Source: Thermoleophilia bacterium (GTDB taxonomy: Bacteria; Actinomycetota; Thermoleophilia; Miltoncostaeales; Miltoncostaeaceae). Taken from it: DNA of 64,000 bases. The DNA lies in assembly GCA_009694365.1 (NCBI GenBank), contig SHVE01000002.1:62001-126000 (forward strand), read 5' to 3'. This document shows, piece by piece, positions 36,878 to 47,487 of the stretch. The notes beneath the pieces are model-generated. The model was not told the DNA's origin and ran no database searches. It saw nothing but the letters and a program-made list of their open reading frames with translations. The position numbers were made by a program, and so were the translations under genes. Positions within the stretch are counted from its first letter, which is position 1. The number at the start of each line of letters is the position of its first letter.

Positions 36878-37690
36878 GTGCCGTCGCCCCTCAACAACCC
36901 CGCCGACAGCTTCGACCGCAGCGCGGTGGCCTACGACCTGCTCGTTGCACCCAACCGCGCCGGGTCGCGCCGACTCATCGCCGCTCTGCCCGAGGAAGAG
37001 TTCCCCAACCTGCTCGATGTGGGGTGCGGAACTGGGTTCGCGGCCCTTGAGGCCATCGAACGCCGGGGCGTGCGTCACCTCGTCGGAGTCGACACGTCGC
37101 AGGGGATGCTCGACGTCCTCCGTGAGCGGCTGGGAGCGCACCCGGACGTCCGCGCCGACCTTCGCGCCCGTGACGTGCTCGACATGGGCGTGGACGACGG
37201 GTGGGCCGATCTGGTGCTGTCCACCATGGCGCTGCACTGGTTCACCGATCGTCCGGCCGCCATCGCCGCGATGGGTCGCGCACTCCGGCCCGGAGGGGTG
37301 CTCGGAATCCTCGCTCCCGGGGAACGACACGATTCCCCCACGGTGGATGTGATCCGGGCCACCGGTGACCGACATCTCGGTCGTCTGGCCGACTCGATCG
37401 TGAACAACGAGATTCCGGTGGAGATGATCACGGCGATGGTCGAGGCGGCCGGCCTCGAGCCCATCGACATCTGGAGCGAGACCCGTCACCGCGTAGTCGC
37501 TGCCGGGACCCTGGCCGATCGCATGGAGGCCGTGGCCACCCATCTGTGGTCCGACCTGCCGGATGACGAGCAGCACGACCTCCTCCGGCGCATGCGCGAG
37601 GTGTTCACCGCTGCGGCCGACGCGGACGGCATGTACCGCTACCGCTTCGTCAAGACCTTCGCCGTGGCCCGCCGGTCGCCGGTCGCCTAA
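36878..37690 (+). CDS. SAM-dependent methyltransferase (BioC-like class I)
   Basis: A 270-residue class I methyltransferase. The glycine-rich SAM motif LDVGCGTG is at about residues 46-53, the acidic motif VGVDTSQGML near 72, and WADLVLSTMALHWFTD near 108, where BioC-type enzymes have a similar HW pair; GRALRPGGVLGILAPGE follows. The N-terminus (NPADSFDRSAVAYD) also resembles BioC. No biotin gene is nearby, so the substrate is open. It ends convergent and overlapping with the acyl-CoA dehydrogenase gene. Confidence 0.8.
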   Translation: MPSPLNNPADSFDRSAVAYDLLVAPNRAGSRRLIAALPEEEFPNLLDVGCGTGFAALEAIERRGVRHLVGVDTSQGMLDVLRERLGAHPDVRADLRARDVLDMGVDDGWADLVLSTMALHWFTDRPAAIAAMGRALRPGGVLGILAPGERHDSPTVDVIRATGDRHLGRLADSIVNNEIPVEMITAMVEAAGLEPIDIWSETRHRVVAAGTLADRMEAVATHLWSDLPDDEQHDLLRRMREVFTAAADADGMYRYRFVKTFAVARRSPVA

Positions 37691-38832
37691 CGGGCGGCGT
37701 CACCGAACAGGTCGCGTGCGATCACCATCCGCTGGATCTGGCTGGTGCCCTCATAGATCTCGGTGATCTTGGCGTCACGGTAATAGCGCTCCGCGTCGTA
37801 TTCGGCGGAGTATCCGTAGCCACCGAGCGTCTGGACGGCAGTGTCCGCCGCCTTCACCGCGACCGATGACGCGAACAACTTGGCCTTGGCACCGGCCGCG
37901 CCGTGGGGCTGGTTGGCGTCGCGGAGCGCGGCCGCATGCAGCGTGAGCAATCGGGCGGCGTCGAGCTGCGCGGCGACATCGGCGATGGGGAACTGCACAC
38001 CTTGGAACCGCGCGATGGGCCCTCCGAACGCGTGGCGGTTGGTGGCGTAGGTGACCGCCAGATCGAGCGCCGCCTGGGCGATTCCGCACGCCTGAGCGGC
38101 CACCGTGATCCGCCCACCGTCGAGCGTGGCCAGGGCGAGCGTGAGGCCCTCGCCCTCGGCACCCAGCATGGCGGCGCCGGACACGGTCAGTCCGTCGAAG
38201 GCCAGCCCGACCGTGGAGGAACTGTGCAGGCCGAGTTTCGGGATCTCGCGACCCACGTGGAGTCCCGGAGCCGACCCGGTGACGAACGCGCTCACGCCGT
38301 GCGCACCCTCACCCCCGGTGCGAGCGAAGATGATGAAGACGTCGGCGACGCCTCCGTTGGTGATCCACTGTTTGGCCCCGTCGATCCGCCAGCCCCCGTC
38401 CACGGCGGTGGCGCGTGTGCGGAGCGCCTGGGTGTCCGATCCGGCATCGGGCTCGGTGAGGGCGTAGCACCCGAGCACCTCGCCACTGGCCAGGCGGGGA
38501 AGCCACCCCTCCTTCTGCTCATCGGTGCCGACGCGGAGGAGCGGCGATGCCACGAGGCCGCTCTGCACGACGATGGACACGCTGGTGCCGGCGTCAGCGC
38601 GCGCGATCTCCTCGACGATAAGGCAGAGAGAGGTGGCATCGAGTCCGGGGCCGCCGTACTGCTCAGGGATGGTGGGCGCGAGCAGTCCGAGTTCGCCCAT
38701 GCGAGCGATGGTGTCTAGGGGAACGTGGTGTCGCGCATTCCAGTCGGCCGCGTGCGGCGCCACCTCATTGGTGGCGAACTCACGAGCGAGGGCCTGAACA
38801 ACCCGGTGGTCGGGGGTGAGGCCGGCTGACAT
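37687..38832 (-). CDS. Acyl-CoA dehydrogenase
   Basis: A 381-residue FAD flavoprotein that introduces a double bond into acyl-CoA. It has the N-terminal helical domain, the FAD/substrate signature YALTEPDAGSD near residue 133, KQWITNGG near 167, TLGGYGYSAEYDAERYYRD near 340 and the catalytic Glu in IYEGTSQIQRMV near 362. The fatty acyl or branched-chain substrate cannot be told from the sequence alone. The ATG at 38832 overlaps the stop of a small upstream frame (ATGA). Confidence 0.93.
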   Translation of the reverse strand: MSAGLTPDHRVVQALAREFATNEVAPHAADWNARHHVPLDTIARMGELGLLAPTIPEQYGGPGLDATSLCLIVEEIARADAGTSVSIVVQSGLVASPLLRVGTDEQKEGWLPRLASGEVLGCYALTEPDAGSDTQALRTRATAVDGGWRIDGAKQWITNGGVADVFIIFARTGGEGAHGVSAFVTGSAPGLHVGREIPKLGLHSSSTVGLAFDGLTVSGAAMLGAEGEGLTLALATLDGGRITVAAQACGIAQAALDLAVTYATNRHAFGGPIARFQGVQFPIADVAAQLDAARLLTLHAAALRDANQPHGAAGAKAKLFASSVAVKAADTAVQTLGGYGYSAEYDAERYYRDAKITEIYEGTSQIQRMVIARDLFGDAAR

Positions 38833-39033: not shown

Positions 39034-39393
39034 ATGGGAAAATTTCGTGAATTCGTACCGATCGCCATCAGTGTCGTCATCATCGCACTCTGCGCTCTTG
39101 TCCCCTTCGCGGTGGGGCGTGGCAACGACGGCGTCGGTCAGGTCCGCGCGACCGCGGTCGCGCTGGCCGCGATCAACATGGAGGGCCAGATCCTCCAGGG
39201 CCGGGCGCAACTCGATCAGCAGGCGCTGACCGACGCGATCGTCGTCGCAGCGAAGGACGGTGTGCCACTGACAGACATCGCCAAAGCCATCGCACCGCTG
39301 CTCAGCATCCCCGAGGACAACGCGCTTCAGGGCGTGCAGTCACTCATCGCCCAGGCCGCGGCGACCGATCTTGGTGGAGTGCCAACGCCGTAG
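39034..39393 (+). CDS. Small membrane-anchored or secreted protein, function unknown
   Basis: A 119-residue protein with one N-terminal hydrophobic helix (VPIAISVVIIALCALVPFAV) and a mostly helical remainder rich in Ala, Gln and Ile. It contains no cysteine motif at the cleavage region, so it is probably anchored or exported by a plain signal. ATG at 39034; upstream ribosome site is weak. A strong hairpin follows. No family recognised. Confidence 0.7.
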   Translation: MGKFREFVPIAISVVIIALCALVPFAVGRGNDGVGQVRATAVALAAINMEGQILQGRAQLDQQALTDAIVVAAKDGVPLTDIAKAIAPLLSIPEDNALQGVQSLIAQAAATDLGGVPTP

Positions 39394-39409: not shown

Positions 39410-39443
39410 CGTGGGGCATGCCGGAGGGTCGGCATGCCCCACG
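39410..39443 (+). terminator. Hairpin terminator, 13-bp stem
   Basis: CGTGGGGCATGCC pairs perfectly with GGCATGCCCCACG across an 8-nt loop, 17 nt after the stop of the gene at 39034. Confidence 0.7.
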
Positions 39444-39482: not shown

Positions 39483-39508
39483 CGCCGCACCCCGACCGGG
39501 GTGCGGCG
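39483..39508. terminator. Second hairpin, 11-bp stem with GACC loop
   Basis: CGCCGCACCCC pairs perfectly with GGGGTGCGGCG around GACC. Between convergent genes it could serve either strand. Confidence 0.55.
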
Positions 39509-39698: not shown

Positions 39699-41045
39699 CT
39701 ACGCGCGCGGCGGTTTACCCTCGTGGTCGCACAGCTCCGGGTGCCAGCGGTGGAAGTGGTTCGTGTGCTGGTCCGACAGCGACCCGTCGGGGTAGTACTG
39801 CTCGTAGAAGTCCGGATCCACGTGCTGCGCTTGCGTGGTGAGCCGCTGGAACATCGAGTCGATGTACACCGGAAACCGGCCGTAGGTGTCGTATGCGTAC
39901 TGGCAGTAGGCCTTGACCATCGCCACGGTCTCGTCGTGGGGTCGAGGGATGGCGTTGACGAACGTCTCGTTCTGCTGAGGGGTCTTGTACGGCTTGGCGA
40001 CATCCTCGTCCATCGCCGACCACTTCATGGCCATGAAAGCGTCGACCGCCTCGTGCATGTCGCCGTAGTACGGGGGCACGTAGGCCTCGAAGCACCCGTC
40101 GCGGCCCACCGCGTAGCTGGTGCCCTTGTTGTCTTCGTTGAAGCGGAATCCGAGGCCCGGAACGTCGCCACCGCCCATGACGAACTTGGGGAGGTACCCG
40201 GTGAACGTCCAGCCACCGAGCCCGAGGGCCTGCATCGCCAGGTTCATGTTCTGGCAGATGAAGCCCTGCTCCACGACCATCATGGACATGATGCGCATCT
40301 CGAGATCGGTGATGCTCATGCGCACGGCCGGGTTGATACGGCCGGAGTCGATCCACGTCTGGAGCCCAGCCGATCGACCACCGTGCTGGTCGTCCACGAT
40401 GTTGAACGCGTACGACCGCGCCAGATAGATGAAGAGCACGTTGATGTACTCCATCGTCATGTTCGTGACCGGCACGAACAGGCTGGTGCCCGGCTTGTTG
40501 GCGTTCCAGTGGTTGAAATCGAACAGGCCCGGGAGCTCGGTGGGGAGCTGGGCACGGCCCTCGTGCAGGCGTACCTTGGCGCGCCGGAACAAATCCACCA
40601 GATAGTCAGCCTGGTCCGCCATCGTGTGGCCCGAGAGCGTGGACACCTCACCGGGCTCGGGCACCATCTTGAAGATGTCGAGCCACCACAGGCCGTCGTC
40701 ATTGGTCCAAAAGAGCTCCGTGCCGTGGTTTGAGCAGGCCGACGGCCAGGTGCGGTTGGTCCACTGCACGAGCGTGCTCATGCCGCGGTGCGGATCGAGG
40801 TCGGCCAAAGCCAAGCCGTTGAGCCCGGTACCCGCCATCACAAGGAGAGCCTCCTCCAACTCCGAGAGCGGAACGGGCATGTAGGGGGAGGAGTACTCGA
40901 TGACATCGGACTCGACCGTCATCCCGAGCGCCACGCGGCGTGATTTCCGATCGAACACCGACTGGAAGTACGGATAGCTCAGAGCGTCCGTCAGGCCCAG
41001 CGGCGCGCCGGCGACAATCCCGAGGGGGTCGGCTTCCGTAGTCAT
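39699..41045 (-). CDS. Unknown 448-residue protein, distantly nitroreductase-like
   Basis: I do not recognise a defined family. The N-terminal part (YFQSVFDRKSRRVALGM, then PVPLSELEEALLVMAGTG) follows the order of an FMN nitroreductase: paired arginines, a proline-led helix, then an active-site loop. The middle is rich in Trp, Asn and Met (WPSACSNHGTELFWTNDDG, then DGLWWLDIFKM). No signal peptide or membrane helix is present. AGGAG lies 9 nt before the ATG at 41045. It is downstream of, and probably cotranscribed with, the nitroreductase-family gene at 41269, which suggests a two-component redox enzyme. Confidence 0.75.
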   Translation of the reverse strand: MTTEADPLGIVAGAPLGLTDALSYPYFQSVFDRKSRRVALGMTVESDVIEYSSPYMPVPLSELEEALLVMAGTGLNGLALADLDPHRGMSTLVQWTNRTWPSACSNHGTELFWTNDDGLWWLDIFKMVPEPGEVSTLSGHTMADQADYLVDLFRRAKVRLHEGRAQLPTELPGLFDFNHWNANKPGTSLFVPVTNMTMEYINVLFIYLARSYAFNIVDDQHGGRSAGLQTWIDSGRINPAVRMSITDLEMRIMSMMVVEQGFICQNMNLAMQALGLGGWTFTGYLPKFVMGGGDVPGLGFRFNEDNKGTSYAVGRDGCFEAYVPPYYGDMHEAVDAFMAMKWSAMDEDVAKPYKTPQQNETFVNAIPRPHDETVAMVKAYCQYAYDTYGRFPVYIDSMFQRLTTQAQHVDPDFYEQYYPDGSLSDQHTNHFHRWHPELCDHEGKPPRA

Positions 41046-41268
41046 CGTGCGTGTCTCCTTGGCCGTTCGAGGAAGGACCGGTACGCGTGCGTTCCGAATG
41101 ATGCAGACGATAGGACGCCGCGCCGCGCGATGCCGTCCTTCGGTGCGCCGCCGCCGCCGTGATCAACGGCGCCCGCCGCGCACGGTGAGGGTCGTCGCAC
41201 GGGACCCGTCGCGGCGTTCCGTGCGACGGAGCGCGGCCCCGGCGCGTCCATCCGATCCCGCCGCCGAG

Positions 41269-42288
41269 CTAGCCCGTCGGCAGAAACTTGGCCGCGTCGA
41301 TGCCGTGCTCAACCATGAGCGTGGTGAACGTCTCCTTCATCTCCTGCGGGTACTCCGGAAGATCCTCGGTGGCCAGTACCTCGGCGGCCTTCTCGCGGAT
41401 ACGGGGGCCGAAGTCCCAGTCGTCATCACTCATGAGGCGCTCGATCTCGGACGCCGGGAAGTAGAGCATCCCGGGGTCGCGGCCATGCATCTCGGCGATG
41501 CGCGCGATCTCGTCGAAGCGACCAGGGAGTGGGGCCTGATCCTGAATGAGTCCCTTTTCGCGCAGCATCTGCTCGGTGGACGGGTCACAGGTGTACGGCC
41601 GGCCGAGCGCGTTGTCGTGGAAGAGGCGCTCAAACTTGAGGCGGGGGCGTTGGCCCCCGGCATCCGCGCTCTCGAGCGGGTATCCCACAGCGTGGCCCCA
41701 CGTGAACCGGTAGTGCGGGGGCAGGTCGAAGGCCTTCTCTACGCCGCCCGGCTTGCGACCGAACGCAATGAGGATGTTGCCCACGCCGAGGCCCACGCCG
41801 GCGGCAATGGCGTTGGCCACGGCCTGACCGCTCTCAAACCGCAGCAGGGTCTCAGTGCGCTCGCGCGGGAAGCTCATGAGGCGCGGGATCGTCTGGGTCA
41901 TCGAGAACTCGTAGTTCCACCCGTGGTACTTGGTGGCGGCGCCCGAGAGGCTGAGGCTGGAGATGCCGTCGATCGCGCGGCCGTACCACGCGTTGAGGTT
42001 GGTGAGCCAGAGGATGATGTGAGACGCGTGGTTGATGATCTGCACGTTGAAGCCCGACACGCACTCCTCGAGCTCATCCCAGAGGTCGCACTCGTCGCGA
42101 CGGACGACGATCGCCTCGGTCGCGTTGATGTTCCCTTGGCACGACGAGAAGCGTGCAGCCTGAAGCATGGACTCAATCTTCCACCGCTCGACCTCGCGGG
42201 ACTGGTCGAAATACCGGATGCTTCGACGGTTGCCGAGTGCCGTGAGGATCGGTACGTCGGGAATCTGATCGGCGGCCGGAGTGGACAT
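41269..42288 (-). CDS. Nitroreductase-superfamily protein, long form
   Basis: A 339-residue protein whose N-terminal 200 residues show the nitroreductase order: NRRSIRYFDQSREVERWKIE near residue 20, AARFSSCQGNINATEAIVV near 45, and VANAIAAGVGLGVGN near 165 followed by HAVGYPLE. This implies FMN binding. The C-terminal 130 residues (from about 210) are an unrecognised extension with charged helices. The ATG at 42288 has GGAAGGG 7 nt upstream. The next gene leftwards (39699-41045) probably belongs to the same transcript; the substrate is unknown. Confidence 0.75.
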   Translation of the reverse strand: MSTPAADQIPDVPILTALGNRRSIRYFDQSREVERWKIESMLQAARFSSCQGNINATEAIVVRRDECDLWDELEECVSGFNVQIINHASHIILWLTNLNAWYGRAIDGISSLSLSGAATKYHGWNYEFSMTQTIPRLMSFPRERTETLLRFESGQAVANAIAAGVGLGVGNILIAFGRKPGGVEKAFDLPPHYRFTWGHAVGYPLESADAGGQRPRLKFERLFHDNALGRPYTCDPSTEQMLREKGLIQDQAPLPGRFDEIARIAEMHGRDPGMLYFPASEIERLMSDDDWDFGPRIREKAAEVLATEDLPEYPQEMKETFTTLMVEHGIDAAKFLPTG

Positions 42289-42447
42289 CGGCGGACCCTT
42301 CCGGGTAGATGGGGGCCGGTTACGTGAGTGGAGCACCGGCGCGAGCGTCATCAGGCTACAACGGCGGCGGCGGGCGGCGACGGGCTGGTGCTGATCGCGC
42401 TCGTGGTCCGACCTCGTGGGTCACCGGTCACGACCCCGTGGCGGCAT

Positions 42448-43799: not shown

Positions 43800-44999
43800 T
43801 CAGTTGATGATCTGGAGTGGGTGCTCCACGCGCACCTCCGCTCCCAGGGCGTCCAGATGCGCTTGGATCTGGATCGCGCAGCCCGGATTGGCAACGGCCA
43901 CCACCGGCGCTCCCGTGGCAATGATCGCCCGAGCCTTCTGGGCTCCCAGCACCGCCGCCGTCTCGGGTTCGAGCACGCTAAACAAACCCGCGGCTCCGCA
44001 GCAGCACCCGCCGTCGCCCAGATCCACCGTGGTCGCGCCGGCGGCGCGCAGCGTGCGACGGATCTCGGGGCCGATCCCTTGGGCGTGCAGGTGGTGGCAG
44101 GCGTCGTGAACCGCCACTCGGCCCTCGTACCGCTCAGCGGGTGGGGCGTCGATCTCCACGGCGTCGCGTAGCCGGGCGGCCAGCTGCCGCGCGCGGGGCG
44201 CCCACTCGGGGTCGTCGGCCAGCACCTCCCCGTAGGTGCGCATGTGCGCGCTGCACCCCGCGCTGTTCACCACCACGATCTCGGCGTCCCCCAGTTCGGC
44301 GATGCGCGTGCGGGCCAGGCGACGTGCCGACTCCACCTCGCCCGCGTGCGCCGCCAGGGCACCGCAGCAGCCTCCGCCGGCCGGTACCACCGCCCGGTAG
44401 CCGGCGCGCATGAGCGCGTCGATCGTGGCCCGGTGCACCGGGCGAAATGCGACGTCCATCACACACCCGGTGAGCAGCATGGCGACGGGTCCCTCGCCAC
44501 TCGATTGTGGGAGGGGAGTGAGCAGTTCGCGCAACGAGACACGGGGGGTGGCAACGCGGAACCGGCGGGGGATCAGCCGCTGCATGTGCAGGGCTTGGAG
44601 GATCCCGATCGTCCACGCGACGATGTGGGTGAGTCGCCGGTGGCCGATGATCCCGTTGATACCGACACGACGGATTCCGCGCGTCGCCGCCGTCCGGTGG
44701 GCCGCGGTCTGCACACGCGCCGCCTCGATGAGCCGTCCGTAGGGCACCCCGCTCGGGCACGCGGCCTCGCAGGCACGGCACGACAGGCACTCATCGGTGA
44801 AGGTCGTGAAGTCACCCGCAACCGGCGTCACGCCCGCCTGCACCGACCGCATGGCGGCGATACGTCCGCGGGGGGACGACGTTTCGAGCCCGGTGATGCG
44901 AAAGGTCGGGCACGCCGGAAGGCACAGCCCGCACTGCACGCAGGTGTTGAGGTCGTCGCGTGCGGGCGCGGGCAGGCCCGCCATCCACGAACCCGTCAT
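43800..44999 (-). CDS. glcF: Glycolate oxidase iron-sulfur subunit
   Basis: A 399-residue electron-transfer subunit. Two 4Fe-4S motifs, CVQCGLCLPACP near residue 20 and CLSCRACEAACP near 72, are followed by two CCG-type cysteine domains (LLTGCVMD with GGCCGALAAH; DACHHLHAQG with GGCCCGAAGLF). It receives electrons from the GlcD/GlcE flavoproteins and passes them toward the quinone pool. Its ATG overlaps the glcE stop. It is last in the leftward operon, with a hairpin behind it. Confidence 0.92.
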   Translation of the reverse strand: MTGSWMAGLPAPARDDLNTCVQCGLCLPACPTFRITGLETSSPRGRIAAMRSVQAGVTPVAGDFTTFTDECLSCRACEAACPSGVPYGRLIEAARVQTAAHRTAATRGIRRVGINGIIGHRRLTHIVAWTIGILQALHMQRLIPRRFRVATPRVSLRELLTPLPQSSGEGPVAMLLTGCVMDVAFRPVHRATIDALMRAGYRAVVPAGGGCCGALAAHAGEVESARRLARTRIAELGDAEIVVVNSAGCSAHMRTYGEVLADDPEWAPRARQLAARLRDAVEIDAPPAERYEGRVAVHDACHHLHAQGIGPEIRRTLRAAGATTVDLGDGGCCCGAAGLFSVLEPETAAVLGAQKARAIIATGAPVVAVANPGCAIQIQAHLDALGAEVRVEHPLQIIN

Positions 45000-46048
45000 A
45001 CGGGCACCACGTCACGGGCCGCGAACCGGCCCGGGCAGAGAACCCCGGCAGGGTCGAATGAGGTACGGATGCGGCGCATAATCTCGGCACCGGCGGGGGG
45101 TGGCCCGAAGGGGTTGACGCGCAGTTCGTCGTCACCGTCGATCACCTGTGCATGGCCGCCGTAGAGCCCGGCGAGGTCGTGAGCGGCGGCCACACCCGGG
45201 GCGTCGCCCACAGCGAGACGGCAGATGCCGATGCCCAGCCAAGCCTCGAAGTCGCGACCATCGTCCGTTAGACGGTGCGCCAGTGGTCTGAGCGCGCCCG
45301 GTGCCACACCGATCTCCACGATACCCGCCCCCGAGGGCCCCTCGGGAGCGGGTCCGATCTCCATTCCGGCCGGTGCCGCCACGTCGCCGGGTGCGCCCAT
45401 GAGACACACATGCAGTGCACCCGGTCGCACGATGACGGCGCTTGGACGGTGACCGCGTGCCATGACGCCATCCGCGACCATCATCACGTGGGCATCCGTG
45501 CCCCGGGCGACATACCACTGCTCCGCCATGGGGAGCGGCCACATCTTGAGCGTCACCTGCACGATGACCCCGAGGGTGCCGAGCGACCCACACATGAGGC
45601 GCGGGAGGTCGTAGCCCGTGACCGACTTGACCGTTCGGCCACCACCCTTGACGATGCGCCCATGGCCTGTAGCCACCACAACCTCGAGCAGCGAGTCACG
45701 TACCGGGCCCACCCCGAGGCGCCGCCGACACGACAGGGCCGCCGCCACGATGCCACCCACCGTGCTGCCCGGCAGCACCTGAGCCTGCGGCCACGCCTGC
45801 CCGGCCCCGTGGGCCAGACGGACGACCTCGCTGCCGAGGACGCCGCCCTCCACGGTCATCGTCATGTCGTTCGGCGAGTAGTCCACCACACGGTTGAGGC
45901 CCCCCACCCCGATGACGTCATCGGGCGTAAACGGCCACCCCCGCCGCGAGTGCATGCCTCCCCCGCGGATGTCCACCACGCGTCCGGCCGACGACGCCGC
46001 AGCGAGCGCCTCGGCCACCTCCCCCGAGGTCGTCGGCGTCAGATCCAT
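44996..46048 (-). CDS. glcE: Glycolate oxidase FAD-binding subunit GlcE
   Basis: A 350-residue FAD-linked PCMH-domain protein related to GlcD but shorter. It shows DIRGGGMHSRRGW near residue 28, the VVDYSPNDMTMTVEGG strand, LPGSTVGGIVAAALSCRRR near 90 and VKSVTGYDLPRLMCGSLGTL near 140. The ATG at 46048 has GGAGGG upstream and lies inside the end of glcD, so it is preferred over an in-frame start at 46093. It partners GlcD and GlcF. Confidence 0.9.
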   Translation of the reverse strand: MDLTPTTSGEVAEALAAASSAGRVVDIRGGGMHSRRGWPFTPDDVIGVGGLNRVVDYSPNDMTMTVEGGVLGSEVVRLAHGAGQAWPQAQVLPGSTVGGIVAAALSCRRRLGVGPVRDSLLEVVVATGHGRIVKGGGRTVKSVTGYDLPRLMCGSLGTLGVIVQVTLKMWPLPMAEQWYVARGTDAHVMMVADGVMARGHRPSAVIVRPGALHVCLMGAPGDVAAPAGMEIGPAPEGPSGAGIVEIGVAPGALRPLAHRLTDDGRDFEAWLGIGICRLAVGDAPGVAAAHDLAGLYGGHAQVIDGDDELRVNPFGPPPAGAEIMRRIRTSFDPAGVLCPGRFAARDVVPV

Positions 46049-47487
46049 GTGCCCTCCGGAATCTGCCGGTCCGCGATCCCCACCTCGCCGCATCGCGTAC
46101 CGGTGGGCAGGACCTTCGCCGGGTTCATGCGCCCGGCGGGGTCGAAGGCACGGCGCAGGCAGGCTTGGGCCTCCAGATCGTCGTCGGTGAAGACCAACGG
46201 CATGTAGTCGCGCTTCTCCACCCCGATGCCGTGCTCACCGGACAACGTTCCGCCCATCGCCACGCACGCCCGCACGATGGCGTCGCCGGCCCGCATTGCG
46301 CGCTCAAACTCGTCGGGATCGCTGCGATCGAAGGCGATGATGGGGTGCAGATTTCCGTCACCGGCATGGAACACGTTGAGGCAGATCACGTTTTCGCGCT
46401 CGGCGATCTCGCCGATCACGTCCATGATCGCCACCAGTTTGGTGCGCGGCACCACGCAGTCGTGCAAGTAGTAGCTGGGCTTCACACGCGCGACCGCGCC
46501 GAAGGCGTTCTTGCGCGCCTTCCAAAGCAGCGCCCGCTCTTCGTCATCCTGTGCCACACGGATGGTCCGCACTCCGCCGGCGGTGGCCACGCGCTGCACC
46601 ACCTCGTCGGCGGCGGCGACCTCGGCTGGGGTGCCGTCCACCTCGACGAGGAGGAGCGCCGCCGCGTCGGTCGGCAGTCCCGCGTGCACGAACTCCTCCA
46701 CGGCGACGGCCATGTTGCGATCCATCATCTCCATCGCCGCGGGAATGACTCCAGCGGCGATGATCGCCTGGACCACCGTGGATGCCTCTCTCACCGTGAC
46801 GAAGTCGAGGAGCATCGTGCGCACGAGCGCAGGCAGTGGGGTGAGGCGCAGGAGGATGCGAGTGACAACGCCCACCGTCCCCTCGGCGCCCACCACGAGC
46901 CCACGCAGGTCGTACCCGGGGGGGTCGGGTGCGAGGCCCCCGAGCACCACGACCTCGCCGTCCGGCAGCACGAGCTCCACCCCCAGCACATGCTGCACGG
47001 TCACGCCGTACGCGAGGCAGTGCGGGCCACCGGCGTTGGTAGCGACGTTGCCGCCGATCGAACACGCCTGCTGGCTCGACGGATCGGGTGCGTAGAACAG
47101 GCCGTGCGGTGCGACCGCGGTACTGACGTCGAGGTTGAGCACCCCCGGCTCCACCCATACGCACGCGTTCGCGAGGTCCACCTCGGCGATTTCGCGCATG
47201 CGCGCAAGCGACACCACGAGCCCGCCCGCCAATGGCAGCGCCCCGCCGGTGAGGCCCGTACCCGACCCGCGGGGCACCACCACCACGCGCGCCTCGTGGG
47301 CGATGCGGAGAATCGCGGACACCTGCGCGGTGGTCTCGGGCAGTACCACCAGATGGCAGTTGCCGTCGACGATCGACCCGTCGTGTGAGTAGATACGCGT
47401 CGCGAGGTCGCCGGTGAGCACGCCGTCCGGACCCACCACCTCCGCAAGGCGACCCGCGATCGTGGCGGCCGACACGTCGGTGCTCAT
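46039..47487 (-). CDS. glcD: Glycolate oxidase subunit GlcD (FAD-linked oxidase)
   Basis: The 482-residue catalytic flavoprotein, oxidising glycolate (or D-lactate) to the 2-oxo acid. It has the PCMH FAD-binding PRGSGTGLTGGALPL near residue 72, PDPSSQQACSIGGNVATNAG near 133, LVVGAEGTVGVVT near 195 and the C-terminal substrate region HAGDGNLHP with SGEHGIGVEKRDYM. D-lactate dehydrogenase is the main alternative, but the adjacent glcE and glcF favour the three-subunit glycolate oxidase. Confidence 0.92.
   Translation of the reverse strand: MSTDVSAATIAGRLAEVVGPDGVLTGDLATRIYSHDGSIVDGNCHLVVLPETTAQVSAILRIAHEARVVVVPRGSGTGLTGGALPLAGGLVVSLARMREIAEVDLANACVWVEPGVLNLDVSTAVAPHGLFYAPDPSSQQACSIGGNVATNAGGPHCLAYGVTVQHVLGVELVLPDGEVVVLGGLAPDPPGYDLRGLVVGAEGTVGVVTRILLRLTPLPALVRTMLLDFVTVREASTVVQAIIAAGVIPAAMEMMDRNMAVAVEEFVHAGLPTDAAALLLVEVDGTPAEVAAADEVVQRVATAGGVRTIRVAQDDEERALLWKARKNAFGAVARVKPSYYLHDCVVPRTKLVAIMDVIGEIAERENVICLNVFHAGDGNLHPIIAFDRSDPDEFERAMRAGDAIVRACVAMGGTLSGEHGIGVEKRDYMPLVFTDDDLEAQACLRRAFDPAGRMNPAKVLPTGTRCGEVGIADRQIPEGTWI

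Follow-up and report, generated by a model that had tools for sequence, protein, structure and literature searches.

Oxidases that act on lipids, for example TyzC, are already included in the nitroreductase superfamily (PF00881), in which 22 subgroups are counted and whose nitroreductases are typically homodimers (PMC10404671), and crotonases of the BadI/MenB type occur with acyl-CoA ligases in alicyclic carboxylate pathways. The two genes compared with these systems here, A and B, lie in a 64,000-nucleotide stretch of DNA (the window) from the 1.5 Mb genome of a freshwater actinobacterium, whose named relatives are Miltoncostaeales/Thermoleophilia MAGs and whose family is labeled f1. A and B probably encode flavin-dependent oxidoreductases of the nitroreductase superfamily, two independent enzymes that take part in acyl-CoA or carboxylic-acid catabolism, a role read from the genes that accompany them. 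Coordinates of the features are collected in Table 1.

Table 1. Features of the A-B region, in window coordinates.
Feature	Position	Strand	Description
Acyl-CoA dehydrogenase	37687..38832	(-)	381 aa; on the strand of B; in most members of the genus located after B
Inverted repeat	39410..39443		Perfect, 14-bp; 17 nt past the stop of ORF 39034-39393 (+ strand, convergent)
Inverted repeat	39483..39508		Perfect, 12-bp; downstream of B
Gene B	39699..41045	(-)	448 aa; unnamed family, predicted enlarged nitroreductase fold
A-B gap	41046..41268		223 nt; occupied in relatives by genes for crotonase and acyl-CoA ligase, either whole or as decayed fragments
Gene A	41269..42288	(-)	339 aa; PF00881 over residues 20-203 plus C-terminal extension

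Both open reading frames were recovered as the first-pass annotation had described them, in length, common direction and spacing, and plausible Shine-Dalgarno sequences precede A (GGAAGGG) and B (AAGGAG), in agreement with the good ribosome sites reported there. An alternative in-frame start at 42351 would give A a longer ORF; the start that yields 339 aa is favored because relatives align from residues 1-3. Third-position GC was 0.87 for A and 0.89 for B, and dN/dS against orthologues was 0.13-0.26 for A and about 0.1-0.26 for A and B together, so neither is a chance ORF; both are real genes on which purifying selection acts. The pair of hairpins noted after B corresponds to the perfect 14-bp and 12-bp inverted repeats, which lie 190-290 nt beyond the B stop and closer to the stop of the convergent ORF 39034-39393 (119 aa, with an N-terminal hydrophobic segment), for which no family match above cut-off was obtained. 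The inverted repeats carry no T tract and the terminator scan made no call on them; the 14-bp repeat is possibly a shared terminator. Upstream of the A-B region, a GlcD/GlcE/GlcF glycolate-oxidase-like set occupies window positions 43800-47487, and it stays near the region in several relatives (L110, L117, L147).

A was assigned to the nitroreductase family PF00881 (38.6 bits against a cut-off of 23.5, E 1.6e-9, residues 20-203; Pfam), its nearest solved structures are nitroreductases, PHROGs gave a weak nitroreductase match, and the previously quoted blocks NRRSIRYF, SSCQGNINATEA and GVGLGVGN are all present. AlphaFold returned a pLDDT of 39 for A, the sequences being insufficiently diverse. 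The 130 residues that had been described as an unknown tail do lie beyond the Pfam match, which ends at residue 203, but most of them are shared with outside relatives: Dadabacteria proteins (42-45% identity) match up to residue 290-294, those on Rhodococcus and Paenarthrobacter plasmids (32-33%) up to residue 267, and relatives outside f1 on plasmids or in other actinobacteria up to residue 267-270, with lengths of about 265-340 residues among distant relatives. The tail therefore shrinks to about the last 45 residues, the only lineage-specific part. A or an A paralogue is present in all sampled f1 genomes, often in two copies, and a paralogue with 72% identity to A is encoded elsewhere in the window's genome.

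On the Paenarthrobacter plasmid pCZY (L089), genes for CofD and CofGH come after a 270-aa relative of A, and on a Rhodococcus opacus plasmid (L238) a relative of the same length is followed by a protein that we take, by eye, to be CofD. A class III aminotransferase is encoded upstream in both, and the arrangement suggests an F420-linked catabolic cluster; CofG is also present in the window's genome.

Direct adjacency of A and B was found within the genus in the window, L116, L119, L120, L147 and L219, and, listed by genome, in the window's own and in G018, G013 and G011. Outside the genus it was found at two odd f1 loci (L103 and L104), at which A either lies downstream of B or diverges from it; close pairing of A with B is essentially limited to one genus. 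In other members of the genus, a ligase gene stands between A and B in L111, L113, L114, L118 and L134, and a crotonase, a ligase and a collagen-like gene separate them in L117. Decayed genes occupy the gap at two loci: L119 retains crotonase sequence (62% over 61 aa, E 4e-22) and a ligase trace of 17 aa, L120 retains ligase sequence (match of 58% over 72 aa, at E 1e-24), and a further crotonase match at these loci has E 8e-19; a search of the window's own A-B gap for a remnant of either gene gave no trace. Parts of this arrangement also occur separately, as A-crotonase-ligase without B (G113, G022, G305), as A beside crotonase and ligase with B absent alongside (L190, L191, L210, L212, L214), and, in other f1 genera, as ligase-B without an adjoining A (L108, L121, L123, L125, L127), and the f1 ligases from A and B settings form a single well-supported clade. 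Judged by these gene orders and fossil fragments, the simplest history would be an ancestral module A-crotonase-ligase-B that was cut down by deletion several times, in the window included.

The collagen-like gene (L117:5866-6801; also L115 and L235-L237), which in some members of the genus separates the ligase from B, encodes 311 aa with an N-terminal hydrophobic segment and G-x-y repeats. The titles of the MAGs carrying L110, L111, L120 ('Bifidobacterium breve') and L116 ('Acidobacteria') do not fit their sequences, which are genus mates of the window's genome, and look like mislabeling.

The neighboring crotonase is closest to BadI/MenB, scoring 241 and 260 bits against a BadI equivalog cut-off of 468, and the neighboring ligase is a PF00501 acyl-CoA ligase; because crotonase and ligase scores fall under equivalog cut-offs, no pathway can be named. 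At f1 loci L136, L140-L143, L158 and L179, B comes directly after an acyl-CoA dehydrogenase gene (3 to about 190 nt), and in rhizobia and actinobacteria, including Nonomuraea (L085-L088, L100), it adjoins a fatty-acid alpha-dioxygenase that matches a solved alpha-dioxygenase at E about 1e-101, the B relatives so linked forming a single well-supported clade. Beside these dehydrogenase and dioxygenase genes, B is not accompanied by A. In Dadabacteria, B and a ligase of 45-48% identity are convergent neighbors, not co-transcribed, and second A copies adjoin proteins that, named by eye, are presumably thiolase-like, DUF35-like and acetoacetate-decarboxylase-like. Many far B loci (L082-L084, L090-L097) have neighbors without an acyl-CoA theme. 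A literature search found no paper tying bacterial nitroreductases to fatty-acid alpha-dioxygenase or to BadI.

The alpha-dioxygenase proteins of L085-L088 and L100 are large, with an extra N-terminal stretch that is catalase-like in L086 (E 6e-7). A thiamine-diphosphate enzyme is encoded upstream of the alpha-dioxygenase protein in two cases (L087 and L088); for the rhizobial clusters we do not claim alpha-oxidation through a 2-hydroxyacyl-CoA lyase, a possibility that was considered, since this enzyme is nearest to acetolactate synthase models, all under cut-off.

These neighborhoods bear on an alternative that is a serious contender, somewhat short of an even chance, namely that A and B are separate enzymes catalyzing different steps of one pathway, with no complex between them. 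Within the genus both cluster with a common ligase and crotonase, and Miltoncostaeales and Dadabacteria genomes carry both (A relatives were found, unlinked to B, in seven of the eight Dadabacteria-type genomes with B), so a looser functional link between A and B is possible. The genes are apart in most other genera, however, several paralogues of each exist, and co-occurrence in the two clades may stem from shared habitat or transfer.

B scored 12.2 bits against PF00881 (cut-off 23.5; Pfam) and 11.2 bits against the SagB-type peptide dehydrogenase model TIGR03605 (cut-off 78.4; NCBIfam). Nothing convincing was obtained for it in Pfam, NCBIfam or PHROGs, no match in the viral fold library, and none by phmmer against nitroreductase-family PDB chains; that the larger protein matches no described family thus holds for the libraries searched. 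Weak signals were nitroreductase-like: PF00881 was detected weakly in 4 of 14 B-family members (best E 0.0017), weak matches of B, its relatives and the family profile recur on the GLG region of nitroreductases, and PDB profile matches converge weakly on the nitroreductases NfsA, FRase I, NfrA1 and McbC. An AlphaFold model of B, made with 56 sequences, was confident (pLDDT 90.6, pTM 0.90). Its top structures were 8cqs (Foldseek probability 1.00; VIA Z 15.8, 2.3 A, 179 residues), 3hoi and 3hj9, with Z 15.2-15.8, 2.3-2.4 A and 179-182 residues across the three, followed by the oxidases BmdC, ThcOx and McbC (Z 11.5-13.3), and 177 chains had a Z of at least 8. As modeled, the fold of B is the nitroreductase alpha/beta fold enlarged by roughly 230-270 residues, about 270 residues having no counterpart in the compact structural matches. 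The profile and structure searches that had been suggested for both proteins therefore bear out their nitroreductase-like character, A by Pfam and B by predicted fold, with B staying under the Pfam cut-off. Since B falls under every curated family cut-off, its superfamily placement rests on fold and motif.

The similar block that had been pointed out in the first part of B reads RKSRR (residues 33-37), which parallels RRSIR of A (21-25), so that R33-x-S35-x-R37 of B corresponds to R21-x-S23-x-R25 of A. R-x-S-x-R in both proteins agrees with the N-terminal FMN-phosphate motif of the nitroreductase superfamily, R-x-S-x-K/R, and R33, S35 and R37 of B correspond to the FMN-phosphate residues of NfsB. 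Across 14 divergent members, seven residues of B (R37, G275, G277, H408, Y414, H430 and H435) do not vary and R33 is at least 90% conserved; among 56 members R33 and R37 are invariant and S35 is at least 90% conserved. A and B are both predicted to bind FMN, which in the superfamily usually sits at a homodimer interface. Direct BLASTP of A against B gave no meaningful similarity, and in a profile-profile comparison, with shallow profiles, the RRS-R block alone aligned, at negligible probability.

That B is a flavin-dependent lipid oxidase or desaturase, comparable to SagB/ThcOx oxidases or to members of the FDO subgroup (TyzC, Acg) within the same superfamily, would fit the rank of BmdC, ThcOx and McbC as its best solved matches after three anonymous nitroreductases, the fatty-acid enzymes that it adjoins, and the precedent of TyzC, a single-domain FDO for which a large lid-like insertion is predicted (PMC10404671). 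We regard this as rather unlikely: the SagB model scored far under its cut-off, no ThiF or N-acyltransferase neighbor was seen in contexts that are partly annotated, and a common fold shows no function. It is improbable that B has lost flavin binding, its nitroreductase scaffold then serving for binding or in another non-catalytic role; its similarity to all known nitroreductases is very low and its insertions are large, but the R-x-S-x-R and GLG positions are among its most conserved residues.

B was found in almost every genus member sampled, in most of f1 and, from the phylum at large, in 22 of the 396 genomes sampled, and a scan of species genomes returned 408 relatives; the taxa with B include Miltoncostaeales, Dadabacteria, other Actinobacteria, rhizobia and one haloarchaeon. 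Dadabacteria and related genomes hold relatives of 41-53% identity, two to three copies apiece, and relatives of 26-34% are found on plasmids of Rhizobium, Phyllobacterium, Rhodobacter, Nonomuraea and the archaeon Haladaptatus, labeled 'hypothetical protein' where annotated. The B family is unnamed, widespread and conserved. Two nearby copies of B occur in near-tandem in L157 (7001-8278 and 8782-9684) and, in G007 and G012 (L118/L128 and L134/L144), on a single contig with about 14-15 kb between them.

In G014 the linked A has been lost and B is kept next to glycolate-oxidase genes, the remaining A paralogue having just 66% identity, and in five far actinobacterial genomes with B (G083, G252, G222, G374, G311) no A was found. 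Together, the lost linked A and these five genomes make an obligate A-B enzyme unlikely. The heteromeric flavoenzyme that the first-pass annotation had put forward, a mixed dimer of two nitroreductase-fold chains with FMN at the interface, is not supported and is very improbable: the shared superfamily fold, the common direction, the adjacency in the window, G018, G013 and G011, and the presence of A or a paralogue in every searched f1 genome with B and of A relatives in most Dadabacteria-type genomes with B speak for it, but the gene pair is not conserved past one genus except at the two odd f1 loci, other genes stand or formerly stood between A and B, B occurs without A elsewhere, and nitroreductases typically pair with themselves (PMC10404671).

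Under the preferred reading of two independent flavoenzymes, the present adjacency of A and B would be a shortened form of a module consisting of A, a BadI/MenB-like crotonase, an acyl-CoA ligase, in some members the collagen-like gene, and B, with the acyl-CoA dehydrogenase standing after B in the longer module. The ligase would activate a substrate or product of A or B. A may act on an intermediate bound to CoA, either ahead of or following hydrolysis of a ring or chain by the crotonase. B may oxidize or reduce a carboxylic acid, fatty or alicyclic, or the corresponding thioester, and the extra 230-270 residues of B would then form a substrate cavity or lid. A more speculative extension, to which we give limited credence, is that B represents an unrecognized, widely distributed nitroreductase-fold subgroup whose members would all carry out the same redox step on carboxylic acids of the fatty or alicyclic kind, for instance the turnover of a 2-hydroperoxy or alpha,beta-unsaturated acid, across modules with CoA-ligase (Miltoncostaeales, Dadabacteria), alpha-dioxygenase (rhizobia, Nonomuraea) and acyl-CoA dehydrogenase. 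Hundreds of genomes encode this conserved, unnamed protein, whose predicted fold is that of a flavin enzyme and whose neighbors often belong to carboxylic-acid metabolism. The nitroreductase-fold assignment offers a first testable role for proteins labeled 'hypothetical', and the reconstructed A-crotonase-ligase-B module hints at substrates worth trying.

Set against the PF00881 superfamily as a whole, A lies above the Pfam cut-off and B has the predicted fold and an N-terminal R-x-S-x-R, whereas B, with about double the usual size, is under the cut-off. The best structural matches to B, 8cqs (BT_0217) and 3hoi (BF3017) from Bacteroides and 3hj9 from Ralstonia, differ from it in having 192-210 residues and 15-16% identity, and their entries name no physiological role. 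Azoline oxidases of the SagB-type/ThcOx/McbC/BmdC group are the next-best structural matches, but B is far under the SagB family cut-off and no peptide-maturation genes were seen near it. For the alicyclic pathway of BadI, the neighboring crotonase falls short of the equivalog cut-off (241 against 468 bits), although relatives carry, beside A and B, crotonases and acyl-CoA ligases of the type found in alicyclic carboxylate pathways. With the FDO subgroup (TyzC, TrzS, Acg) no sequence match to B was found, and its ThiF and N-acyltransferase genes have no counterpart seen beside B; like B, however, these proteins are larger members of the superfamily, one with a predicted lid-like insertion, and they act on lipids (PMC10404671, PMC12856293).
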